Shown: one piece after another, positions 50,774 through 64,000 of the stretch
Position numbering within the stretch: position 1 is the stretch's first letter
How the letters are laid out: each line of letters begins with the position of its first letter
Assembly: GCA_026418535.1 (NCBI GenBank)
Contig: JAOABC010000005.1
Span: 1 to 64,000 of the forward strand
DNA: 64,000 nucleotides
Source: Hydrogenothermaceae bacterium
GTDB taxonomy: Bacteria; Aquificota; Aquificia; Aquificales; Hydrogenothermaceae
Direction of reading: 5' to 3'
Position numbers and translations under genes: made by a program
The notes under the pieces: model-generated
The model's database searches: none
The model's input: the letters and a program-made list of their open reading frames with translations, nothing else
Told to the model about the DNA's origin: nothing

Positions 50774-51685
50774 ATGAAAAATGTCTTGGTTTTGGCTGTA
50801 GCTGGAGTGTTTGCTTCTACAGCGAACGCCTCTGATTTACTAATCTCTGTAGATGAAGCGAAAGCTCTCTTAGGTAAGGCAGTGTTCGTAAATGGAGACA
50901 AGCCAGAAGACTTTGCAAAAGGTCATATACCAGGTTCTGTTAACGCATACGCTCACGACCTGCACTACCTAAGCGACATAAAGAAATGTGCTGGCCTTCC
51001 TATGTGTGAAAAGACTGCAGAGAAGTTTATCTCTGAACTTGGAATAAGCAACAACTCTCACGTTATAGCCTACGATGATGGTAAAGGACCAAACGCTTCT
51101 GGTGTATGGTTCTTTTTATACCTATACGGTGTAGACAAAGTCCAGATGTTAGATGGTGGTTTTGCTACATGGAAAGCAAAGGGTTATGAGGTCGAGACAG
51201 GTCCTGCTAAGAAACCTACTCCAGGTAAGTTCACAGTTAAATTAAGAAAAGATATACTAGCTACCAAAGATGAAGTTCTAAAAGCTTCTAAGGATACTAA
51301 CTACGTTGTTCTAGATGCAAGAAGATTTGAAGAGTACACAGGTAAAACTCTGCTTGATGCTTTAGAATCTCCAGGAAAACATATACAGGTTGCCAGGGGT
51401 GGACACATCCCAGGAGCTAAGTTCTTTGAGTGGAAAAAGATAGCAGGAAACCCTAACGGTGAAGCTGATAAGCCTCTCTTTAAGCCTGCTGATAAAATCA
51501 AGAAAGACTTAGAGAAAGCTGGTATTACTCCGGATAAAACTGTCATTTCTTACTGTCACGTTGGCCTTGGAAGGGGTTCTTTCGTGTATGCAGCCCTAAA
51601 ACTTGCAGGTTATCAAAAATCTAAAGTTTACGTAGGTTCTTGGGACGAATGGGGTAATGACCAATCTCTTCCTATCGAACAGTAA
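50774..51685 (+). CDS. Exported two-domain rhodanese (thiosulfate or polysulfide sulfurtransferase)
   Basis: A 303-residue periplasmic sulfurtransferase. Signal peptide about residues 1-19 (MKNVLVLAVAGVFASTANA). The N-terminal rhodanese domain (about 20-145) has no Cys at the active loop: YDDGKGPNASG. The C-terminal domain (about 155-303) has the reactive Cys261 in ISYCHVGLGRGSF. This inactive/active tandem is normal for SseA/TST enzymes. The active loop ending GLGRG rather than GSGVTA sets it apart from MST-type enzymes. Leading gene of cluster A, but followed by an intrinsic terminator, so it may be made in excess over the downstream genes. Confidence 0.9.
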   Translation: MKNVLVLAVAGVFASTANASDLLISVDEAKALLGKAVFVNGDKPEDFAKGHIPGSVNAYAHDLHYLSDIKKCAGLPMCEKTAEKFISELGISNNSHVIAYDDGKGPNASGVWFFLYLYGVDKVQMLDGGFATWKAKGYEVETGPAKKPTPGKFTVKLRKDILATKDEVLKASKDTNYVVLDARRFEEYTGKTLLDALESPGKHIQVARGGHIPGAKFFEWKKIAGNPNGEADKPLFKPADKIKKDLEKAGITPDKTVISYCHVGLGRGSFVYAALKLAGYQKSKVYVGSWDEWGNDQSLPIEQ

Positions 51686-51746: not shown

Positions 51747-52883
51747 ATGGATCATTCTGAATATCTCATAAAAGGTATCATAATGGGTGCTCTCTTTGGA
51801 GTAGTCCTGTTTAAGGTTGGGGCAGTCAGATACTCAAGAGTTGAGGGTATGCTCCTACTGAGGGACCTTAAAATAATGAAGTTTGCCTTTACCGGAATAG
51901 CCACAGCATCCATCATATACGGACTAGCTGCAATATTCGGTTTTACTGAAAGTAGTAACCTCGCTCCAAGGGTTATGGGATATCTAGGGATAGCACATGT
52001 TATAGGTGGTATCATGTTTGGTATAGCTATGGCTTCTGCGGGCTTTTGTCCTGGAACGTGTGTGGCCAGAGTTGGAGCTGGTAAGTTTTTATCTATAGCA
52101 GGAGTATTAGGTCTTGTGGTTGGTATACTTTTGTATAACTCAATCCAGCCATCTTTGGTAGAAGCAGGCATACTTGGGCATTCAGTCGACATCACGCTGT
52201 ACGGTGTTTTAGGAGTGCCTTACGGACCCTTAGCTGTGGCATGGGGTATCCTTTTCTTAGTGTTTGCTATCATAGCGGATTACTTAGACCCTGCTAAAAA
52301 GCTTTACCAAGAGGAAGAGTATAGGAGTTTAAGTGAGAAGATAATAAAGGGAGAGTGGCATTGGGCTGTTGGTGGTGTGGCTGCAGGCTCAATAATAGCC
52401 ATAGTAACGTCCCATGGAGAGTATTTAGGTTTCTCCGGAGCTTTACTCTCACTTGTTGGATGGATCGGACATGAGATAGGATATCCCCTCTCTAACGCCC
52501 TACCAAAGATAAACGAAAGCACTATGTATAGAGCTGGACTACTTATAGGTGTTCTACCTGGAGCACTAATAGCCGCCCTCATATCTGGTAGATTTAAGTT
52601 CGACCCTGTACCTCCTGCATTTGCTCAGGGAGTAGCCCCTATACCTGTAGTCAGGATAGTTTTGGTCTTCTTTGCTGGACTTTTCCTTGCACTGGGAGCT
52701 ATGATAGGTGGAGGTTGCACAACTGGAGCTTTCTTAGCTGCCTATCCTACACTGTCTGTAGGCAGTATGATTATGTCCGCTACTTACTTTGTAGTTGGAG
52801 TTATAACTGCGAACCTGATATACATGGGAAGATGGGAAAGGTTTATCCAGGCTAAGAAGTCTTCTGACGAAGTATACGACTGA
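51747..52883 (+). CDS. YeeE/YedE-family sulfur-compound transporter
   Basis: A 378-residue inner-membrane protein with about nine to ten helices in two pseudo-repeats. Each repeat carries the family's Cys motif: GFCPGTCVARVGAG (about residues 98-111) and GGGCTTGAFLAAYPTL (about 334-349). In the characterised thiosulfate transporter TsuA these Cys line the conduction path. So uptake or release of thiosulfate or another sulfur species across the inner membrane is likely. Placement between a rhodanese and a membrane-anchored rhodanese-fold protein supports a sulfur-relay role. Good AGGAGG ribosome site upstream. Confidence 0.87.
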   Translation: MDHSEYLIKGIIMGALFGVVLFKVGAVRYSRVEGMLLLRDLKIMKFAFTGIATASIIYGLAAIFGFTESSNLAPRVMGYLGIAHVIGGIMFGIAMASAGFCPGTCVARVGAGKFLSIAGVLGLVVGILLYNSIQPSLVEAGILGHSVDITLYGVLGVPYGPLAVAWGILFLVFAIIADYLDPAKKLYQEEEYRSLSEKIIKGEWHWAVGGVAAGSIIAIVTSHGEYLGFSGALLSLVGWIGHEIGYPLSNALPKINESTMYRAGLLIGVLPGALIAALISGRFKFDPVPPAFAQGVAPIPVVRIVLVFFAGLFLALGAMIGGGCTTGAFLAAYPTLSVGSMIMSATYFVVGVITANLIYMGRWERFIQAKKSSDEVYD

Positions 52884-52902: not shown

Positions 52903-53043
52903 ATGAACACGACTGAGAGAGTTTTGTACTGGATAGGAATAATAGTTTTAATAGTGGCTATAATTGGAACAAGCAAGCAGACATCTGAACTGGAAAAAAA
53001 AGAGTCTTCCACTTCGGCGACACAAACTGGAGGTAATCAGTAA
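52903..53043 (+). CDS. 46-residue single-helix membrane peptide
   Basis: ATG at 52903 to TAA at 53043, whose last base is shared with the next ATG (TAATG). The peptide begins MNTTERVLYWIGIIVLIVAI, with one hydrophobic helix (about residues 7-22) and a polar Ser/Thr/Gln-rich tail. An AGAGAG-type ribosome site lies just upstream. Tight coupling to the rhodanese-fold gene and absence of any other frame in the gap support expression. The N-terminal helix and charge pattern resemble those of the next protein (MNPKVERVVYIVVILVLS), so the two may share membrane targeting or be related. Function unknown. Confidence 0.7.
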   Translation: MNTTERVLYWIGIIVLIVAIIGTSKQTSELEKKESSTSATQTGGNQ

Positions 53044-53534
53044 TGAACCCTAAAGTTGAGAGAGTTGTATATATAGTGGTTATTCTAGTTCTCTCTGTCT
53101 ACCTTATCTTCTTAGGGAAGAAGCAGACAGAAATTCAGAGGAATATACCCATAACAGCCCAGGAGCTCTACGATAAACTATCAAGCCCAAAGCTGAAAGT
53201 TCAGATAATAGATGTGAGAGAACTTACATCTGATGACGATGTGGGTGGTTATGAAGACTCAAGAGTACCTGGAGCTATTCCATTCCCAGGATGTGATGAG
53301 TCAAAGATGACATCTGAAAGCTTACAAGAAGCTCTTAAAAGGATAAACCCTTATGCCTATACTGTAATTGTATCTACAAACGGGAACAAAGAGATTTTTG
53401 AGAAATGTGCTCAAAAGTTCAAAAATGTCCAAAACCTTCAAGGTGGAATGGCTGCTTGGCAAGAGGCAGGTCTTCCTGACGAATCAGGTGAATATGTACC
53501 ACCTAAAGCTGGCGGTGGTGGTGGATGTTTATAA
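53043..53534 (+). CDS. Membrane-anchored rhodanese-fold protein with C-terminal Gly-rich Cys arm
   Basis: A 163-residue protein: membrane anchor (about residues 8-24), rhodanese fold (about 37-148: VQIIDVRELT through NLQGGMAAWQEAG), then a tail PPKAGGGGGCL. The position that normally holds the catalytic Cys, after the strand YTVIV, reads STNGNKE, so classical sulfurtransferase chemistry is not expected there. Cys84 and Cys122 lie elsewhere and Cys162 is the penultimate residue at the end of five Gly. The flexible Gly run ending in Cys resembles the SoxY carrier arm (GGCGG). A very similar PKAG...GCL tail ends the protein at 58784. Carrier function is inference. The domain probably faces the periplasm. 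Confidence 0.85.
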   Translation: MNPKVERVVYIVVILVLSVYLIFLGKKQTEIQRNIPITAQELYDKLSSPKLKVQIIDVRELTSDDDVGGYEDSRVPGAIPFPGCDESKMTSESLQEALKRINPYAYTVIVSTNGNKEIFEKCAQKFKNVQNLQGGMAAWQEAGLPDESGEYVPPKAGGGGGCL

Positions 53535-53561: not shown

Positions 53562-56450
53562 ATGGCAATATCAAGAAGGGACTTTTTAAAAGTTATGTCC
53601 GCAACAGGTGCGGCTACTACCCTTGGAACTTCTTCTGCGTTTGCTAAAAACAGCGCTATGATAATAGAAAACCCAAGGGAGAAGTATCCGAACAGCTCTT
53701 TTGTAGAGAACATGTACAGGAAGGAGTTTGCTTATACATACGGTAGAAAGGAGGAACACGGAACTGCCTACCACTGTGTCAACTGCCAAGGAAACTGTGC
53801 ATGGGACGTATGGGTTCAAAATGGTATCGTCACAAGAGAGAACCAAGCGGCAAACTACCCTCTCCTTAACCCAAAAATACCAGATGCAAACCCAAGGGGT
53901 TGCAATAAAGGTGTCCAGCATTCTCAGGTTATGTACGAGAAGGACAGAATACTGTACCCTATGAAAAGAGTTGGAGAAAGAGGGGAAGGTAAGTGGAAGA
54001 GAATAAGCTGGGATGAAGCAATAACAGAGGTCGCAACGAAGATATACGAGACTATGCTAACGGTAGGACCTCAAGGAAACTATATTCACCTAGGAGCAGG
54101 AATGCTCACAGAAGCAAGAGCAGCTTCCGGAAAAAGACTTGGAACTCTACTCGGTGCTGTCAGGCCTTACATAGCTTCTTACGTTGGTGATATGTTTCCC
54201 GGAGTATCCTTAGTATACGGAGAAGGTAATATAGGTTTTTCTTATGACTTTGTTTATACCGCAAACGTCCAGATCTGGTGGGGACAGGATCCTAACAAAT
54301 CTAGAATTCCAGATGCTCACTGGGTATGGGAAGGTAAGTACAACGGCGGTAAGGTGATCGTTATAACTCCAGATTACAATGCAACCTGTAAGAGTGCAGA
54401 CCTCTGGGTTCCAGTTAGGGCAGGATACGATGGTTTCTTAGCGATGTCTATCATAAACGAGATAATCCAGAAAAAACTCTACAAGCCAAACTTCATAAAA
54501 ACCTTCACAGACCTACCTTTATTAGTCAGGTTAGACAACAAGAAGCTTCTTAGACTTTCAGACATAGACACTAAGGAGCCTATGTTCGATAAGGAAATAT
54601 TCCACAATATGGAAGAGAAAGCTCATGGAAAGCACTTTGAAGAACATGAAGTATTCTTATCTTACAACCTGAAAAACGGAAAGCTAACTGTTATGCCTGG
54701 TTCTGAAGGAAACCCGGTGAAAACATTAAGATTAAAGGATGTAGGTTGGGATATAGACCCTGCATTGGAGGGAGTTTACGAAGTCAAGTTGAAGGATGGC
54801 TCTAAAGTGAAAGTGACCCCTGTGTTTGAACTCGCCAAGGCAGAGGCTCAGAAGTTCGCAGCAGAGAAGGTGTTCAAACTTACGAACGTCCATCCAAAGA
54901 TAGTAGAACAGTTAGCTAAAGATATAGCTCTTCCAAAGGTTGTAACTATATCTATGGGATTTACTATAGGAAAGTACTTCAACGGTATGCTTGCTCAAAG
55001 AGCTATAGCATCTATAACTCCTCTCTGTGGAAGACTTGGACCTTACGGTGGATTTAACTCTGAGAACGAGTGGTCCATAAGTGGTCTTGATATTATCTCT
55101 GGATTTGGTGGAAAGTATCAGCATAGGTTTGCCTCTGGTTTCGTGAGTGAATTCGTCCTTGGAAATATGATGCAAGACTTCGATAAACTATACGAAGAAG
55201 ACACATTCAAACAAGTTATGGGAATGTCTAAGGCTGAGTACAAGAAGAAAGTGGAAGAGATGCTCTCTATGTCAGAAGGAGACAAGGGTGTTAATAAAGG
55301 AAAACCGTATTGGAACGATGTTCAGACATTCCTACTATTTGCAGATGCAAGGTTCAGAAGGAACAAAGGAACTTCTTACAAAAAGGCCTTCTTAGAGAAG
55401 GCTAAGTTCATAGCATACGTTGACTTTAGGATGTCTGACTTTGCAAACTACGCTGATATACTCCTACCTGCAAAATCCCACTACGAGGTATGGGATCTAA
55501 GGACAAATCCTGGATATCACAGGTTTGCAAACCTAGCTCATCCACCTGCAAACTTAAAACCTGTTGGAGAAGCTAAATCGGAGTGGGAGATATGCACTCT
55601 TATAGTAGAGAAACTCCAAGAGATAGCTATGAAGAAGTACAAAGAAACTGGAGACAAAAAGTACATAAAAATACCTGATCCTCAATTCTCAAAAACAGGA
55701 TACAGAGACCTTGACAAGGTAGTAGAAGAGTTTACGATAAACGGAAAACTCAGGACAGATAAAGATGCTGTTGAGTTAGCTCTCGAACACACAGAGCAGT
55801 TCAAACCAAACACTATAGAGTCTATGTTCAAAAGGGGTGGATACCTTACATTGAACGAGAAAGGCGGAAAAACATCTCCTCTGTATCCAGACAAACCTTA
55901 CAACTTCTTTGAGAACAATCTATACCTGTACGAACATTTCGAGACACTATCCGGAAGGATAACTTACTACGTAGACCACGAACTTTGGATACAGGAAGGA
56001 GCCAATGTCCCAACGGCAAAAGAACCAATCAGACCAAGAAAATATCCATTTGTTCTACTTACACCTCATGCAAGATGGTCTATCCACTCCACCTACAAGA
56101 CTTCTACTATACTCATGAGACTCCAAAGAGGAAAGCCTTATATCATGATAAATCCAGAGATAGCTAAGAAGAAAGGCATAAAAGATGGAGACGAGGTAAG
56201 ACTGTATAACTCTCTAGGTGAGTTTTACGCTATGGCTAAAGTATATCCATCTTGTCCTAAAGATGCTGTCATACTAGAGCACGGATGGGAACCTTTCTTC
56301 TACAAGTTCAGAAAAGGACACAACGAGACTGTAGCGTCTCCACTAAACCTACTTGAGCTATCAGACGGTTGGGGACATCTTAAGTTCGGTGGAAATTGGG
56401 ACGGAAACCAACACGCTTATGAGACTTCTTTAGATATAGAAAAAGTTTAA
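53562..56450 (+). CDS. Type II DMSO reductase family molybdopterin catalytic subunit (NarG/EbdA/SerA-like), Tat-exported
   Basis: A 962-residue Mo-bis-PGD enzyme. A Tat signal (SRRDFLK at residues 4-10) gives periplasmic export. The FS0 cluster ligands are His71, Cys75, Cys79 and Cys114 (H-x3-C-x3-C...C), with His first as in nitrate reductase NarG and ethylbenzene, dimethylsulfide, selenate and chlorate enzymes. Asp210 in GDMFPG lies where this family places its Mo-ligating Asp (inference). The C-terminal molybdopterin-dinucleotide domain covers about 835-962. It forms a complex with the next two genes. The substrate is not deducible. The sulfur-handling neighbours point to a sulfur compound rather than nitrate. 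No NarJ/TorD-like chaperone gene is adjacent, which is unusual. Confidence 0.92.
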   Translation: MAISRRDFLKVMSATGAATTLGTSSAFAKNSAMIIENPREKYPNSSFVENMYRKEFAYTYGRKEEHGTAYHCVNCQGNCAWDVWVQNGIVTRENQAANYPLLNPKIPDANPRGCNKGVQHSQVMYEKDRILYPMKRVGERGEGKWKRISWDEAITEVATKIYETMLTVGPQGNYIHLGAGMLTEARAASGKRLGTLLGAVRPYIASYVGDMFPGVSLVYGEGNIGFSYDFVYTANVQIWWGQDPNKSRIPDAHWVWEGKYNGGKVIVITPDYNATCKSADLWVPVRAGYDGFLAMSIINEIIQKKLYKPNFIKTFTDLPLLVRLDNKKLLRLSDIDTKEPMFDKEIFHNMEEKAHGKHFEEHEVFLSYNLKNGKLTVMPGSEGNPVKTLRLKDVGWDIDPALEGVYEVKLKDGSKVKVTPVFELAKAEAQKFAAEKVFKLTNVHPKIVEQLAKDIALPKVVTISMGFTIGKYFNGMLAQRAIASITPLCGRLGPYGGFNSENEWSISGLDIISGFGGKYQHRFASGFVSEFVLGNMMQDFDKLYEEDTFKQVMGMSKAEYKKKVEEMLSMSEGDKGVNKGKPYWNDVQTFLLFADARFRRNKGTSYKKAFLEKAKFIAYVDFRMSDFANYADILLPAKSHYEVWDLRTNPGYHRFANLAHPPANLKPVGEAKSEWEICTLIVEKLQEIAMKKYKETGDKKYIKIPDPQFSKTGYRDLDKVVEEFTINGKLRTDKDAVELALEHTEQFKPNTIESMFKRGGYLTLNEKGGKTSPLYPDKPYNFFENNLYLYEHFETLSGRITYYVDHELWIQEGANVPTAKEPIRPRKYPFVLLTPHARWSIHSTYKTSTILMRLQRGKPYIMINPEIAKKKGIKDGDEVRLYNSLGEFYAMAKVYPSCPKDAVILEHGWEPFFYKFRKGHNETVASPLNLLELSDGWGHLKFGGNWDGNQHAYETSLDIEKV

Positions 56451-56464
56451 GAGGAGGAATATAG

Positions 56465-57616
56465 ATGTCAAAAAGACAGCTTGCTATGGTTATGGATTTA
56501 AATAAATGTATAGGTTGCCAAACCTGTACTGTTGCATGTAAGACCCAGTGGACCAACAGAAACGGAAGAGAATATATGTACTGGAACAACGTTGAAACTC
56601 ATCCAGGGTATGGATACCCAAGGAACTGGATGGAAGCAGGTGGTGGTTTCGACGAAAGCGGTAATCTTAGGGATGGTATTATTCCGGATATGGTGTTAGA
56701 CTACGGTGTTCCGTGGGATTACAACCACGATGAACTGATAAACGGCTCTCTCTTCCAGGCAAAGACGGACAGTTTAGAGTGGGGTCCGAACTGGGACGAG
56801 GATGTAGGTGGTGGAGAGTATCCAAACTCCTACTTCTTCTACATACCAAGGATATGTAACCACTGCTCTAACCCTGGCTGTCTGGCAGCATGTCCAAGGG
56901 AGGCTATATTCAAGAGAGAGCAGGATGGTATAGTTTTAGTTGACCTTGAGAGATGTCAAGGATACAGATACTGTATAGCAGGATGTCCTTACAAGAAAAT
57001 ATACTTCAACCCTAAAATATCTAAATCTGAAAAATGCATATTCTGCTTCCCAAGGGTAGAGAAGGGTCTACCTCCAGCCTGTGCTCATCAGTGTGTAGGT
57101 AGAATAAGATTTGTAGGGTTCTTAGATGACGAAGCAGGTCAAGTTTATAAGTTAGTCCACAAATACAAAGTAGCTCTTCCTTTAAGACCTGACTTTGGAA
57201 CACAACCAAACGTATACTACGTTCCACCTCTGTTTGAGCCACCAAAGTTCGATGAGAACATGCAGCCTGTAGAAGGTTCAAGAAGAACACCTATCGAATA
57301 CTTAGAGCTCCTCTTTGGAAAGGAGGTACACACAGCCCTTGAAACTCTCAGGAAAGAGCAAGAGAAGAGAGCAAGAGGAGAAGAGTCTGAGCTTATGGAC
57401 ATCTTGATAGCGTACTCCCACAGAGACATGTTCAGACTGGACAACAACTACTATCAACAACAGGTGGACAAAAAACTAAAAGGCTCTGAATTCTTCAAAG
57501 TTATAGACCAAAGATACCTACAGGGTGCAAATACCAAAAGAGTGGAGATAAAGGATTACACATTCCACGAGAAGATGCTCCCCCAAAAGGATAGCTCCAA
57601 AGCTAAACACCATTAA
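56465..57616 (+). CDS. Four-cluster ferredoxin subunit of the type II molybdoenzyme (NarH/EbdB/SerB-like)
   Basis: A 383-residue electron-transfer subunit. Cys sets: CIGCQTCTVAC (residues 15-25), CNHCSNPGCLAACP, CQGYRYCIAGCPYKK and CIFCFPRVEKGLPPACAHQC. The third set lacks one Cys, with aromatic residues in its place. That matches the [3Fe-4S] site of this subunit family, where Trp is usual and Tyr is seen here. No signal peptide, so it should be carried out by the Tat signal of the catalytic subunit. It lies 14 bases after it. The C-terminal charged tail (KDSSKAKHH) is metal-binding in appearance but not conserved to my knowledge. Confidence 0.94.
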   Translation: MSKRQLAMVMDLNKCIGCQTCTVACKTQWTNRNGREYMYWNNVETHPGYGYPRNWMEAGGGFDESGNLRDGIIPDMVLDYGVPWDYNHDELINGSLFQAKTDSLEWGPNWDEDVGGGEYPNSYFFYIPRICNHCSNPGCLAACPREAIFKREQDGIVLVDLERCQGYRYCIAGCPYKKIYFNPKISKSEKCIFCFPRVEKGLPPACAHQCVGRIRFVGFLDDEAGQVYKLVHKYKVALPLRPDFGTQPNVYYVPPLFEPPKFDENMQPVEGSRRTPIEYLELLFGKEVHTALETLRKEQEKRARGEESELMDILIAYSHRDMFRLDNNYYQQQVDKKLKGSEFFKVIDQRYLQGANTKRVEIKDYTFHEKMLPQKDSSKAKHH

Positions 57617-57670: not shown

Positions 57671-58771
57671 ATGAAGTTAAAACTGTTCACCTTAGGTTTG
57701 GTAGGGTGTGTAAGCCTGTCTTTCGCTGACGGTTTTGAGGAGGATGTTATAAACGTAAAGAAGACACAGAAGTTTAATCCTTCAGCTTTAGAGTTTAAAA
57801 AAGTGAAAGTCTATCCACAGACATCCGTTAGCCTGAACGACAAGAACACTAAAGATGCTCAGATACCAGAGTTAGAAGTCGGCTCTGTTACTACCGGAAA
57901 AGAGCTTTACGTAGTAGTGAAGTGGAAAGATTATACCCACTCCGTTCAACCACTTTTTACAACTAACAGATACGGAGATGGTATATCTATCCAGTTTCCT
58001 CTCTCCTACGGTAAAGGAAAAACTCTCCCCTACATAGGTATGGGTAATGAAAAAAATCTGGTTGTAGTCTATCTCAAGAAGAACGTTGAAAACAGAGATT
58101 ATGTAAAGTCCTTTATCTCTGAAGGCTTTGGGTCTCTTACAGAGACTTCATATAAAGACTTTAGCTTAAGTTTAGACTACGATAAGGAGAAGAAAGAGTA
58201 TACAGCAGTACTGAAAAAAGCTATAAAACCTACAGACTTGAAGACTGGAATAATACCTGTATCCTTCGCAGTCTGGGATGGAGATAACGGGAATAGGGAT
58301 GGCGTGAAGAATATATCTAACTGGAAGTTTTTGAAGGTGGAGGGTGTCAATCCAGATAAAGGTTACATTTCCTATCTATCTTGGGGATACGGGAAGATAG
58401 GTAATCCAGAGAGAGGTAGAGAACTCCTTATCCAGAACGGCTGTATAGGTTGCCATAACTTTGCAGACCAGAAAAACGCTCCGGAAGGTTTGGCCCCGAA
58501 CTTATCTAGGATAGGGGGATACAATAACCCAGTATACCTGAAAGAGTCTATAGTTAACCCCTCTGCTGTAGTTATAAGAAACCTTAATATCAACAGACAC
58601 TACGATAAATCCCAAGCTCCGGATAAGAACGGTGCTTATCCTAACAACGAGATGTACAGCTGGTACACAAAAGATAACAAAGGCAAAAAAACATCCAAGA
58701 TGCCTCCTTATAACTACTTAGCAGAGCAAGATTTAAACGATATGGTTGAATATTTAAAGAGTTTAAGATAG
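57671..58771 (+). CDS. EbdC-like heme b subunit fused to cytochrome c
   Basis: A 366-residue periplasmic protein with signal peptide (about 1-19). Residues about 25-225 are the EbdC/DdhC/SerC-type heme b domain: the WDGDNGNRDGVKNISNW segment is typical, with Met124 and Lys213 as candidate axial ligands. Residues about 240-366 are a cytochrome c domain: heme attachment CIGCH at 258-262 and distal Met344 in SKMPPYNYL. Known gamma subunits of this family have only the heme b part, and pass electrons to a separate cytochrome c, so the fusion builds the acceptor in. Follows the Fe-S subunit by 54 bases with its own GGAGG. Confidence 0.88.
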   Translation: MKLKLFTLGLVGCVSLSFADGFEEDVINVKKTQKFNPSALEFKKVKVYPQTSVSLNDKNTKDAQIPELEVGSVTTGKELYVVVKWKDYTHSVQPLFTTNRYGDGISIQFPLSYGKGKTLPYIGMGNEKNLVVVYLKKNVENRDYVKSFISEGFGSLTETSYKDFSLSLDYDKEKKEYTAVLKKAIKPTDLKTGIIPVSFAVWDGDNGNRDGVKNISNWKFLKVEGVNPDKGYISYLSWGYGKIGNPERGRELLIQNGCIGCHNFADQKNAPEGLAPNLSRIGGYNNPVYLKESIVNPSAVVIRNLNINRHYDKSQAPDKNGAYPNNEMYSWYTKDNKGKKTSKMPPYNYLAEQDLNDMVEYLKSLR

Positions 58772-58783
58772 GAGGTTGATGAC

Positions 58784-59182
58784 ATGAAAAAGTTGATCCT
58801 AACCTGTTTAGCTATCACATCTATACAACTCTCATCCGTTGCAGCGAATGTGGGAGAGGAGATTGAACTATCAAGTGCAGTTATAACAGCTAAATCCTGT
58901 GCAGAGAAAGCAAAGGAAACCGGGAGTTATGAACTTCTATCATCCTGTCCTCCAGTTGAGGCAGAAAAAACCGGATACGTCATCTATGATGTTACAGAGA
59001 ACACTTTCTACTCTATAGCACCTAGAAATATATACATCTTCGAACTCGACCATGGTTTTGGTGGAAACATAGATGTAACTGGAAAAGTTGTAGACAAACA
59101 GGGAGAACTTCCTGTTATAGAGGCTCAGCAGTACAAGATATCACCAAAACCAAAAGCCGGGTTTTTCAAAGGATGCTTATAA
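58784..59182 (+). CDS. Exported small protein with C-terminal PKAGFFKGCL tail
   Basis: A 132-residue protein with a signal peptide (about residues 1-21, cleavage after VAA). The mature part has Cys39 and Cys55, then a beta-rich segment (GYVIYDVTENTFYSIAP, FELDHGFGGNIDVTGKVV) resembling an OB-type barrel. It ends PKAGFFKGCL with Cys131 penultimate. I recognise no named family. The last ten residues match the end of the rhodanese-fold protein at 53043 in PKAG and GCL although the bodies are unrelated. It is the last gene of cluster A, 12 bases after the cytochrome fusion and before a terminator. A sulfur-carrier or heme-handling accessory role is possible. Confidence 0.75.
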   Translation: MKKLILTCLAITSIQLSSVAANVGEEIELSSAVITAKSCAEKAKETGSYELLSSCPPVEAEKTGYVIYDVTENTFYSIAPRNIYIFELDHGFGGNIDVTGKVVDKQGELPVIEAQQYKISPKPKAGFFKGCL

Positions 59183-59310: not shown

Positions 59311-59946
59311 ATGAAACTTGGTTTCTTGGTTGATTTGAGTAGATGTATGGGCTGTATGGCCTGTGCTGTTTCCTGTAAAGCGGAAAACGATGTTCCTCTT
59401 AACAGTTGGAGACTCAGAGTTAAGTACATAGACCAGGGAGAGTTCCCGGAAGTAAAGAGACACTTTGTCCCACTTAGATGTAACCACTGTGAAAATGCAC
59501 CTTGTGAGAGGATATGTCCAGTAAGCGCTCTCCACTACCTACCAAACGGCATCGTAAACGTAGACCACAACAGATGTATAGGTTGTGCCTCTTGTATGAT
59601 GGCATGTCCTTATAACGCCATATACATAGACCCGATAACCAACTCAGCAGATAAATGCACATACTGTGCCCATAGGATAGAAGTAGGTATGATGCCTGCC
59701 TGCGTTGTTGCCTGCCCAACCCATGCAAACATCTTCGGAGACCTTGACGACCCAGAGAGCGAGATATCCAAATACTTAAAAGAGCATAAAGACGTGATGG
59801 TAAGAAAACCAGAACTGAACACAAAACCTAAACACTTCTACGTTAGAGGATCTACAGTTGCACTTGACCCTCTTGCTTCTGAGAGACCCGAAGGTTATAC
59901 ACTCTTTACAGAAGTTAAATTTTTAGACCATATAGGAGGGCACTGA
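59311..59946 (+). CDS. Four [4Fe-4S] ferredoxin subunit, PsrB/PhsB/TtrB-like
   Basis: A 211-residue electron-transfer subunit, from the ATG at 59311 which has GGAGG eight bases upstream. An in-frame earlier start at 59272 overlaps the promoter region. Cys sets: CMGCMACAVSC, CNHCENAPCERICP, CIGCASCMMACPYNA and CTYCAHRIEVGMMPACVVACP. This is the normal DmsB/PsrB pattern, with all sixteen Cys kept, unlike the cluster A subunit. It links the catalytic subunit at 60846 with the membrane quinone subunit. Two bases separate it from the NrfD-like gene. Confidence 0.94.
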   Translation: MKLGFLVDLSRCMGCMACAVSCKAENDVPLNSWRLRVKYIDQGEFPEVKRHFVPLRCNHCENAPCERICPVSALHYLPNGIVNVDHNRCIGCASCMMACPYNAIYIDPITNSADKCTYCAHRIEVGMMPACVVACPTHANIFGDLDDPESEISKYLKEHKDVMVRKPELNTKPKHFYVRGSTVALDPLASERPEGYTLFTEVKFLDHIGGH

Positions 59947-59948
59947 TC

Positions 59949-60830
59949 ATGCTTGGAGCAGAAGTAACCTTTGATGTAGCACTGCCAAAAGTAGTATGGG
60001 GATGGCTCGTTTCCACCAACATGTGGGCTAAGAGCATAGCTACCGGAAGTTTCTTACTTGGACTGTACTTTATCAAAAAGTATCCGGATAATGATAACTT
60101 CTTCAGGAAATGGATACCTATACTAGGTCTGATATTCATAGGCATAACCCTCTTGGTCACAGTATTAGACTTACACCATATGTTCAGGTTCTGGAAGATA
60201 TTCCTGTTTGCTCACTTTACATCCGCAGTTACTCTCGGAGCATGGGTGGTATCAGGATTTGTAGTTATCTTACTTATATCTTTCTGGTCTTGGGCTAGTG
60301 GAAACAAGAAACTGTTTGATAGATTTATGATACCTGGAGCAGTCCTCGCATTCTTCTCGACTATATACACAGCAGGGATCATGGGACAGTCAACTGCAAG
60401 GGAGATATGGATATTCCCAGCTGAGATGATACAGATGCTACTCTCTGCAGCGATAGCAGGTTCTGCAGCTTACCTGATAGTCATGTTCTTGTACAACATC
60501 CAGAATGAGAGTATAAAGAGAGAGTTAGGATACATACTCTTAGGTTCTGCGTTCTTATCCGGTTTGATGTACGTAGGGGAGCTAATGTTTGCAAAGATGC
60601 ACAGTGAGTTCTCCTACGAAGTTGCCAAGATACTCGCCTTCGGAGAGCTTGCTCCATTCTTCTGGATAGGTATGATACTTACGTTCGTAGTCCCTATGGT
60701 GATGGTAGGGATAGCTAACGAGAAGAAGAAGTACGAGTACTTACCGATGGCAGGAGCATCAGCGATATTTGGGCTCTGGTTTATAAAACACGCATGGCTT
60801 TTAGGTCCACAGATGTTGCCATTAAGCTAA
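59949..60830 (+). CDS. NrfD/PsrC-like membrane quinone subunit
   Basis: A 293-residue integral membrane protein with about eight helices and no heme-ligand pattern. The SAIATGSFLLGLYF-like start (AKSIATGSFLLGLYF here), the central LDLHHMFRFWKIF loop and WFIKHAWLLGPQ end match the NrfD family subunits that exchange electrons with quinones in polysulfide, thiosulfate, tetrathionate and sulfite enzymes. Couples the periplasmic enzyme of cluster B to the quinone pool. Starts two bases after the Fe-S gene and is followed by GGAGG and the catalytic subunit. Confidence 0.9.
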   Translation: MLGAEVTFDVALPKVVWGWLVSTNMWAKSIATGSFLLGLYFIKKYPDNDNFFRKWIPILGLIFIGITLLVTVLDLHHMFRFWKIFLFAHFTSAVTLGAWVVSGFVVILLISFWSWASGNKKLFDRFMIPGAVLAFFSTIYTAGIMGQSTAREIWIFPAEMIQMLLSAAIAGSAAYLIVMFLYNIQNESIKRELGYILLGSAFLSGLMYVGELMFAKMHSEFSYEVAKILAFGELAPFFWIGMILTFVVPMVMVGIANEKKKYEYLPMAGASAIFGLWFIKHAWLLGPQMLPLS

Positions 60831-60845: not shown

Positions 60846-63800
60846 ATGATAAAAACCAATAGAAGAAACTTCCTAAAGGGAGCCGCTGCAGTTATTGGTG
60901 GAGCAGCTTTAGCAAAGGGTGTGTTTGAGAAGACAGAGGCTGACAATAGAGTTGCTAACAACCAAGAGCTAACCTTTGAACCAAAACGGTTAGACTACTA
61001 TCCCCCCTTCGAAAAGTGGAATGACTGGAAAGAGCCTGCAGGAGACTACTGGAAAAAGGAAGGTGGTACCTTAAGGGATGGAGTGAAGCTTATAAACTAC
61101 ATGCTTATTCCTACAGTTTGCAATAACTGTGAAGCTGCTTGTGGTCTTACAGCATGGATAGACAAGGATACTATGACAGTAAGAAAATTCATGGGAAATC
61201 CTTTCCACAGTGGAAGTAGAGGAAGAAACTGTGCAAAGGGGTATGCAGCCCTATCCCAGATGTATGACCCAGATAGAATTCCTTTCCCTTTAAAGAGAGC
61301 TCCTGGTAGTAAGAGGGGTGAGAATAAGTGGGTCAGAACTACATGGGAAGAAGCTTTAGAGACTATTGGTAAAAGGATGAGAGAAGTCTTACTAAAAGGA
61401 GACCAGATATCTAAAAAACAGATAATGTATCATGTAGGAAGACCGAACGAGAACGGTTTCCACGTGAGAAGGGTAGTCCACAGTTGGGGAGTTGACGGAA
61501 GAAATACTCACACTAACATATGCTCCTCTAACGGAAGATTTGGAAACATCATAACTGTTGGAGATGATAGGACTTCTCCTGATTTTGCAAACTCTAGACT
61601 GATAGTACTTGTATCTTCTCACGCTGCAGATGCTGGACACTACTACCAACAACATGCAGGATATATAGCAGATGCAAGAGCAAAAGGTGCAAAACTTGTA
61701 GTCATAGACCCAAGGATGTCTAACTCTGCAGGTATAGCAGACCTCTGGATACCTGCATGGCCCGGGACTGAAGGGGCTATAAATATCGCTATGATTAGTA
61801 GACTTGTTAGAGAAGAGAAGTTCAACAAGAAGTTTGTAGAAAGGTGGTTTAACTGGAAGCAGTTCCTGTCAGCTAAAGACTACCTAAACTACCTCAAGGA
61901 GAAAGGGTCCCTCACAGAACTACCTACCGGAGAAACATTCGACAACTTTGTGGCAGTTCTAAAAGATATATACAAAGATTATACCTTTGAATGGGCCGCA
62001 CAGGAAGCAAGGATACCAGTATCTATGCTTGATAAACTCTACGAGATGATTCTCTGGGCTGGGGATAGGATAACCCAGTACCACTGGAGAGCTGTGGCAG
62101 CTGGGAACAGAGGTGGATGGATAGGAGCTGGAAGAACAGGAACAATCCTTATGGCTATGATGGGAGCACTTGGAGGACCTGGAGGAACAGGATGGTATAA
62201 GTGGCACACACTCTCCCTAGGGGATAAAGGTGGAGATTCCTGCGTGGCAGAGACTCCAGAACCTGTGAAGGCGTGGAACGAGCTACTGTGGCCACCAGAA
62301 TGGCCAATGTCCACTTATGAACTAAGCTATCTCTTGCCGCATCTACTCATGGATGATGAGTGGAGGGAAAAGTGGAAACAGAAGGGGTTGGAAATACCAG
62401 ACAAAGTAGAGGTTTGGTTCAGTAGGATATATAACCCTGTTTGGATAAACCCAGATGGATTTAGATGGGTAGAGGCTCTCGTGAGAGAGGATAAGTTTGG
62501 TCTAAATATCTACCTCTCTCCTAACTGGGGAGAAACAGCTTTCTACTGTGACTATATTCTTCCTATGGGACTAGCAGGAGAAAGATTTGACCAACAATCA
62601 GAACCTACTAAACCTGAAAAGTGGACGGTCTTTAGGCAACCTGTTCTTAGAATAGCTTTACAGAAAATGGGATGGAAGCCAAATGACCCTGCTAAGGCCA
62701 CCCTTGAAGCTCATAAAAAAGTCGGTTTTGGAGAGGTGTGGGAAGAAGATGAGTTTTTTGTAAACCTTGCTTTTGCTATCGACCCTGATGGCTCCCTCGG
62801 GATAAGAAAATACTGGGAATCCAAACAGAACCCAGGAAAACCTGTAACGATGGAAGAATACTACAATGCTGTATTCTCCAAACTTCCAAAGCTATCTCAG
62901 GTATGTCAGGAGATGGGAGTCACCCCATTTGAGTACATGAGAGATAGGGGAGCTTGGACGGAAGCAACAGACGTATATAACATCCACGAAAAGCCTCTCC
63001 CATACGATCAAGAGAAGAAAGCTTACCAGTACGAAGGAAAGTGGATACCGGAAAGTGAGATAAAGATAGAGGATGACCGCGTATACCATGTAGAGGAAAG
63101 TGGTAAGAAGCACAAGATAGGTATAGTCAAGGATGGTAAAATAATCAATGGATGGAAAACTCCTTCCGGACATATAGAGTTCTTCTCAAAGACGATGGTA
63201 GACTGGAAATGGCCAGAGTATGCTATTCCAATATACCCAAGAAACAGAGAAGACAGAAAACAGATGATACATATAGTCTCCCAAGTTCACCACGATTACA
63301 TAACTGAACCAAACGCCTTCGTTCTTAATCCGATCTATAGACTACCTTACTTAGTCCACACAAGGTCTATAAACTCTAAGTGGTGTATGGAGATAGCACA
63401 AAACCATAACCCTATATGGATACACAAAAAAGATGCTGAGAGACTTGGTATAAAGAGAGGAGACCCTATAAAATTAAGAGTTATAGATACATTAACTGGT
63501 ATAGAGACTGGTTACTTTGTTGGAATGGCCACACCTACAGAAGCTACAAGGCCTGGAGTGTTAGCATGTTCCCACCACAATGGAAGATGGAGACTGATAA
63601 ACGAGGTAAAAATTCCTGGTTTTGAGCATGAACTTGGGGTTATGAGATACGGTAGTGTACTGGTAGATATAAAATCTCAAAACGGAAAGTACTTTATGAG
63701 AACTAAAGAAGGTATTAAACCATTCAAATCATGGCAGTATCCTGAGTTTAACAAAGATACAAAGTATATTTGGTGGAAAGGAACTTCCGGGGTGTTCCAA

Positions 63801-64000
63801 AATGCTGTATTCCCTGCGAACCCAGATCCTATATCAGGTATGCACTGCTGGCACAAGAAAGTGTTAGTAGAAAAAGCTGGTCCGGAAGATAAGATAGGGG
63901 ATGTCTTTGTAGACATAAACAGAACATGGGAAGTTTACAAAGCTTGGAGAGATCAGCTAACAAGACCAGGTCCTGGTCCGGAAGGGTACAGAAGGCCAAA
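60846..64000 (+). CDS. Molybdopterin oxidoreductase catalytic subunit, Psr/Phs/Ttr/Soe-like, 3' end off the window
   Basis: At least 1051 residues are visible. Tat signal NRRNFLKG (residues 5-12). The [4Fe-4S] ligands are Cys92, Cys95, Cys99 and Cys129 (C-x2-C-x3-C), all Cys, unlike the His-first cluster A enzyme. A likely Mo-ligating Cys lies in NICSSNGRFG. C-terminal dinucleotide-binding domain begins about residue 805. Size over 1000 with gene order Fe-S, membrane, catalytic is that of tetrathionate reductase (ttrBCA) and of some sulfur reductase/SoeABC-like clusters. Substrate candidates are polysulfide, elemental sulfur, thiosulfate, tetrathionate or sulfite. Arsenate is less likely. The next residues beyond 64000 are needed to see the end. 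Confidence 0.9.
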   Translation, partial: MIKTNRRNFLKGAAAVIGGAALAKGVFEKTEADNRVANNQELTFEPKRLDYYPPFEKWNDWKEPAGDYWKKEGGTLRDGVKLINYMLIPTVCNNCEAACGLTAWIDKDTMTVRKFMGNPFHSGSRGRNCAKGYAALSQMYDPDRIPFPLKRAPGSKRGENKWVRTTWEEALETIGKRMREVLLKGDQISKKQIMYHVGRPNENGFHVRRVVHSWGVDGRNTHTNICSSNGRFGNIITVGDDRTSPDFANSRLIVLVSSHAADAGHYYQQHAGYIADARAKGAKLVVIDPRMSNSAGIADLWIPAWPGTEGAINIAMISRLVREEKFNKKFVERWFNWKQFLSAKDYLNYLKEKGSLTELPTGETFDNFVAVLKDIYKDYTFEWAAQEARIPVSMLDKLYEMILWAGDRITQYHWRAVAAGNRGGWIGAGRTGTILMAMMGALGGPGGTGWYKWHTLSLGDKGGDSCVAETPEPVKAWNELLWPPEWPMSTYELSYLLPHLLMDDEWREKWKQKGLEIPDKVEVWFSRIYNPVWINPDGFRWVEALVREDKFGLNIYLSPNWGETAFYCDYILPMGLAGERFDQQSEPTKPEKWTVFRQPVLRIALQKMGWKPNDPAKATLEAHKKVGFGEVWEEDEFFVNLAFAIDPDGSLGIRKYWESKQNPGKPVTMEEYYNAVFSKLPKLSQVCQEMGVTPFEYMRDRGAWTEATDVYNIHEKPLPYDQEKKAYQYEGKWIPESEIKIEDDRVYHVEESGKKHKIGIVKDGKIINGWKTPSGHIEFFSKTMVDWKWPEYAIPIYPRNREDRKQMIHIVSQVHHDYITEPNAFVLNPIYRLPYLVHTRSINSKWCMEIAQNHNPIWIHKKDAERLGIKRGDPIKLRVIDTLTGIETGYFVGMATPTEATRPGVLACSHHNGRWRLINEVKIPGFEHELGVMRYGSVLVDIKSQNGKYFMRTKEGIKPFKSWQYPEFNKDTKYIWWKGTSGVFQNAVFPANPDPISGMHCWHKKVLVEKAGPEDKIGDVFVDINRTWEVYKAWRDQLTRPGPGPEGYRRP

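Follow-up and report, generated by a model that had tools for sequence, protein, structure and literature searches.

A rhodanese-fold protein without its loop cysteine and an OB-like protein with the same Gly-Cys-Leu tail look like sulfur carriers of a molybdoenzyme operon

The locus described here raises the question of what work is left to a rhodanese-fold protein, rh2, which has no catalytic cysteine and ends in a glycine-rich arm with a cysteine close to its end. Carrier-bound sulfur oxidation is known to use a few carriers (SoxY, DsrC and the lipoate-binding LbpA). In this study, rh2 and a second protein of the same operon, ob, gave the appearance of being sulfur carriers of a previously undescribed type, and a search of the open-access literature returned no published description of the tail or of the operon. 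The window (the whole stretch of DNA that was analysed, 64,000 nucleotides) contains the following genes of this operon:

50774-51685, + strand: rh1, an exported two-domain rhodanese of the mercaptopyruvate/thiosulfate sulfurtransferase type, with catalytic Cys261 (codon 51554-51556)
51747-52883, + strand: YeeE/YedE-type sulfur transporter (PF04143), between rh1 and rh2
53043-53534, + strand: rh2, with an N-terminal transmembrane helix (about residues 9-26), a rhodanese-fold domain (38-142) and a disordered tail (150-163)
53562-56450, + strand: molybdoenzyme alpha subunit, DMSO reductase type II-like, with a TAT signal (TIGR03479, alignment to PcrA)
56465-57616, + strand: iron-sulfur beta subunit (TIGR03478)
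57671-58771, + strand: gamma subunit of the heme-b type (EB_dh) with a fused C-terminal cytochrome c (domain matches)
58784-59182, + strand: ob, the second carrier candidate, with a signal-peptide-like N-terminus, a small beta domain and the tail PKPKAGFFKGCL, in which Cys131 has codon 59174-59176
59314-59946, + strand: TtrB-like iron-sulfur protein of an adjoining TtrABC-like module (profile match, synteny)
59949-60830, + strand: NrfD-family membrane subunit (Pfam, synteny)
60846-63998, + strand: TtrA-like molybdopterin subunit with a TAT-like N-terminus, which continues past the window to contig position 64061

The loop and the tail of rh2

The rh2 open reading frame encodes 163 amino acids, with a short N-terminus ahead of the single transmembrane helix and the C-terminus VPPKAGGGGGCL (PPKAGGGGGCL). 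Membership of the rhodanese family PF00581 was established in Pfam (42.8 bits against a cut-off of 22.2), and the AlphaFold2 model, which was built from 20 sequences with a mean pLDDT of 78, matched rhodanese domains of the PDB with a best E value of 3.8e-5. Residues 150-163 had pLDDT values below 50, with the tail at about 32-41, and are thus disordered in the model. The domain would be located in the periplasm; the net charge flanking the transmembrane helix, considered under the positive-inside rule, is +1 before it and 0 to +3 after it, which clearly favours neither orientation. The residues of rh2 that matter for the argument are as follows:

53292-53294, + strand: Cys84, invariant (21 aligned sequences)
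53373-53375, + strand: Ser111, at the catalytic cysteine position of the rhodanese loop (alignment and orthologues)
53406-53408, + strand: Cys122, invariant (21 aligned sequences)
53511-53531, + strand: arm of Gly157-Gly161, Cys162 (codon 53526-53528) and Leu163, identical in 32 of 32 sequences

The original prediction, made from the sequence of the window alone, held that the active-site loop had lost its cysteine while the other cysteines lay elsewhere, and this was borne out. The loop S-T-N-G aligns with the C-x-x-G of loop-intact rhodaneses, which places Ser111 on the catalytic position, and the only cysteines of rh2 are Cys84, Cys122 and Cys162. The loop cysteine in C-x-x-G that marks a catalytic rhodanese or sulfurtransferase is therefore absent from rh2, with Ser111 in its place in all 32 sequences. 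Judged from the sequence, a disulfide between Cys84 and Cys122 is possible.

A full-length rh2 orthologue was detected in 31 genomes, all of a single family, probably the Hydrogenothermaceae (Aquificota), and none was detected in the other families among the 136 genomes of the phylum that were searched. The orthologue set contained 32 sequences (30 distinct, from about 9 genera), some genomes being represented by two loci, and the lowest identity to the rh2 of the window among the aligned orthologues was 47%. Throughout this set the loop residue was serine and never cysteine, and the last seven residues were GGGGGCL (32/32), the general form of the tail being PPxxGGGGGCL; Cys162 was likewise invariant in the 21 aligned sequences. 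The prediction that Cys162 would be retained, and the loop cysteine missing, in all orthologues thus held in every sequence, and orthologues with an intact loop and a variable tail, which would have spoken against it, were sought in the 136 genomes and none was found. One detail had to be corrected: the cysteine does follow a five-glycine arm, but it is the penultimate residue and not the terminal one, since Leu163 comes after it. Moreover, the codons of the tail vary synonymously for glycine, cysteine and leucine, with three or four codons at each of Gly157-Gly161 and three at Leu163; the GGGGGCL end is invariant despite these changes, and selection has therefore acted on the tail peptide. 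Together, the serine loop and the tail of the orthologues lend good support to the proposed change of rh2 from an enzyme to a carrier or scaffold, as far as sequences can indicate.

Five matches on genome contigs were set aside as relatives of rh2, being generic rhodanese-containing proteins without the tail. Among plasmid records there were no relatives of ob, and a single distant rhodanese was matched.

The second Gly-Cys-Leu tail and the operon

The whole 1.47-Mb genome was scanned for Gly-Cys-Leu followed by a stop, with a filter for true leucine and stop codons and with the open frames read back. Only two such sites ended an open reading frame of at least 60 amino acids, namely rh2 and ob, which lie 5.6 kb apart in one operon. 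The ob protein, which lies beyond the region covered by the original prediction, is putatively exported, has 132 residues and is unrelated to rh2; it matched no Pfam family. Its model is an OB-like small beta domain, for which a fold search returned many OB-fold proteins, none of them as a significant match. Cys39, Cys55 and Cys131 of ob are invariant, its tail PKPKxGFFKGCL is invariant in 19 of 19 sequences, and in each of the 33 genomes with an ob gene the profile match runs through to the final position of the model. The second tail on ob strengthens the carrier reading and indicates the molybdoenzyme encoded between rh2 and ob as the client.

Synteny was assessed on twenty loci in relatives, and gene order was judged on the complete ones. 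These all show one arrangement, namely rh1, yeeE, rh2, alpha, beta, gamma-cytochrome c, ob, ttrB-like, nrfD and ttrA-like, and in every intact locus rh2 and ob bracket the alpha, beta and gamma genes. In one relative (G002), the ttr-like genes are on a different contig from the cassette encoding the arms, which indicates that this cassette, together with alpha, beta and gamma, is a separable unit. The upstream rhodanese rh1, to which the original prediction tentatively assigned the chemistry through Cys261, has kept its loop cysteine: Cys261 lies in YCHVGxGRG and is invariant in the 21 aligned sequences, as are Cys72 and Cys78.

The enzyme between the two tails shares the alpha, beta and heme-b gamma layout of the DMSO reductase type II family (PcrAB, EbdABC, SerABC and DdhABC). 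The alpha subunit scored 799.8 bits against the TIGR03479 cut-off of 984.75, which leaves it outside the curated type II membership, whereas the beta subunit exceeded its own cut-off (525.4 bits against 480.7, TIGR03478). The nearest solved structures to alpha are PcrA (perchlorate) and EbdA (ethylbenzene), and its YVGDMFPG aligns with the molybdenum-ligand region of PcrA (WYGDHPTG). Unlike the type II enzymes, this one has in addition a gamma-cytochrome c fusion and two GCL-tailed proteins whose genes bracket its own. Alpha matches of comparable strength within the phylum were found only in the family that holds rh2.

Likeness to known carriers and a proposed role in sulfur oxidation

DsrC is a cytoplasmic protein whose partner is the siroheme enzyme DsrAB, whereas the operon of rh2 and ob encodes the parts of an exported molybdoenzyme. 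The DsrC of Desulfotignum ends in GACKMAGLPKPTGCV (LPKPTGCV), and in Allochromatium DsrC the sulfur-binding residue is the penultimate Cys111 (PMC3397948). As in the DsrC/TusE family (PF04358), rh2 and ob have a penultimate cysteine that is preceded by glycine and followed by one aliphatic residue, and the flexible C-terminal arm of that family has its counterpart in the invariant and disordered tail of rh2 and the invariant tail of ob. The DsrC fold, however, is unlike either of theirs, and no match to PF04358 was obtained anywhere in the genome at an E value of 0.01. SoxY, whose swinging arm bears the sulfur (PMC11237559), likewise resembles them as a periplasmic carrier with a cargo cysteine on a glycine-rich C-terminal arm, and within the family that holds rh2 this arm ends in GGCG with the cysteine penultimate. 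In contrast, SoxY has a distinct fold and pairs with SoxZ, whereas rh2 has a rhodanese fold with a transmembrane anchor and ob is OB-like; neither was matched by TIGR04488 (SoxY_true_GGCGG) in an NCBIfam scan. The single-domain rhodaneses (PF00581), a periplasmic one of which has been described in Aquifex according to a title cited in PMC4912159, share both fold and Pfam family with rh2, but in rh2 their catalytic cysteine is replaced by an invariant serine and the chemistry has apparently moved to the C-terminal cysteine. Thus, rh2 and ob have the arm design of DsrC and SoxY but not their folds, which suggests that the two work like these carriers while standing outside their families.

On this basis it is proposed that the pseudo-rhodanese rh2 and ob are sulfur carriers whose arms present cysteine-bound sulfur to the molybdoenzyme encoded between their genes, in an oxidative process, a proposal that we regard as evenly poised between right and wrong. 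The rhodanese fold of rh2 would serve as a membrane-anchored scaffold, with Cys162 on the disordered five-glycine arm as the working group, and ob would bear a like arm (GFFKGCL) on an unrelated fold. A sulfurtransferase would load sulfane sulfur or a thiosulfate-derived group onto the arm cysteine; this would most likely be rh1, acting through Cys261, and loading of rh2 by rh1 is plausible because yeeE lies between their genes in the syntenic loci that were read. The flexible arm would then bring the sulfur to the type II-like enzyme of alpha, beta and gamma-cytochrome c and into its active-site funnel, where the bound sulfur would be oxidised and the electrons would exit through the iron-sulfur clusters, heme b and cytochrome c. 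Such a system would be analogous to SoxY with SoxCD, or to DsrC with DsrAB, in a host whose Sox system has no SoxC. We infer the persulfide loading of the arm cysteines, the molybdoenzyme as their client and the oxidative direction of the system. The arms might instead serve the TtrABC-like module or YeeE, because both are encoded in the same operon.

Delivery to YeeE is the most likely of the rival explanations, unlikely as it is in itself. In this case the cysteine relay of the neighbouring YeeE would receive sulfane sulfur from the membrane-anchored rh2, for import and cytoplasmic oxidation; this would suit the position of yeeE immediately upstream of rh2 in syntenic loci and the Hdr-like gene clusters reported in Aquificales (PMC3665934), but would leave unexplained why ob follows the molybdoenzyme and why the two genes bracket alpha, beta and gamma. 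It is distinctly unlikely that the tails serve for docking or tethering without a sulfur cargo, so that disulfides of Cys162 and Cys131, or recognition of the -GCL end as a signal, would hold a soluble molybdoenzyme at the membrane. The N-terminal transmembrane helix of rh2 agrees with such a role, alpha, beta and gamma matched no membrane-subunit family of Pfam, and the identical -GCL ends of rh2 and ob could constitute one recognition motif; the flexible glycine-rich arm and the invariant near-terminal cysteine, however, are those of the known carriers DsrC and SoxY, and the adjoining genes are for a sulfurtransferase and for sulfur transport.

The direction could also be reversed: one of the two molybdoenzymes, Ttr-like or type II-like, would then reduce sulfur compounds, and the arms would hold polysulfide or product sulfur for it. 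The genomes G009, G010 and G021 jointly lack rh2, ob and the TtrB-like protein of the operon, and genes for sulfur or polysulfide reductase and for tetrathionate reductase have been reported in Sulfurihydrogenibium (PMC3665934). A reductive role is nevertheless considered very unlikely, as the gamma-cytochrome c fusion would suit delivery to a cytochrome-dependent oxidase and the Ttr-like genes and the arm cassette are on separate contigs in G002.

The oxidative carrier reading also has to be seen against the Sox system of the host. SoxY scored above its cut-off in 27 of the 41 genomes of the family and SoxC above its family cut-off in none of the 41, the best SoxC-like match in the genome of the window having 46 bits. 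A Sox system without soxC and soxD has been described in an uncultured hot-spring Aquificae bacterium (PMC4912159), and in a Sulfurihydrogenibium-rich spring system the sox complex was tabulated without soxCD, which was present at one site only (PMC4220137). A carrier-fed molybdoenzyme could complete the oxidation of the sulfane sulfur. A broader claim, tentative and still rather doubtful, is that of a new route for sulfur oxidation in the periplasm: a dead rhodanese and an OB-like protein would have convergently gained the same arm and would feed a type II-like molybdoenzyme, the whole taking the place of SoxCD. If it is true, two new carriers that differ in fold but end in one and the same motif would make the near-terminal cysteine arm a reusable design, it would be explained how bacteria with a SoxC-less Sox system oxidise the remaining sulfane sulfur, and the uncharacterised type II-like molybdoenzyme would gain a testable sulfur substrate.

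Variation in SoxY and among the loci

The soxY gene of the window's own genome (contig C11, 305392-305856; L162, 7393-7857) is the sole TIGR04488 match there, at 305395-305853, and is separate from rh2 and ob. Its tail, VGGCG, is the canonical GGCGG minus one residue, and the carrier cysteine is thus penultimate; SoxY proteins of the family that holds rh2 end in VGGCG or IGGCG. The operon and SoxY do not always occur together: SoxY went unmatched in G014 and G019, both of which have the operon, and G021 shows the reverse, a SoxY but no operon.

In G025 (L067, 13925-13988), rh2 is absent and the N-terminus of alpha is about 120 residues shorter, as if by a single deletion. This genome was set aside as a natural loss of rh2 alone, given the shortened alpha, and the operon is probably broken in this strain. 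In G015 (L074, 749-1585), ob is separated from the ttrB-like gene by an open reading frame of 278 amino acids which, judging from its sequence, could encode a transposase. Three tandem copies of yeeE were found between rh1 and rh2 in G006 (L043, 12165-14457 and 14468-15601), where other loci have one. Finally, the ttrA-like gene is followed (contig C25, 64135-65855; L152, 2136-3856) by genes for a 212-amino-acid TorD-type chaperone look-alike and a 359-amino-acid protein with ferredoxin-like cysteine motifs, which probably form the end of the operon.
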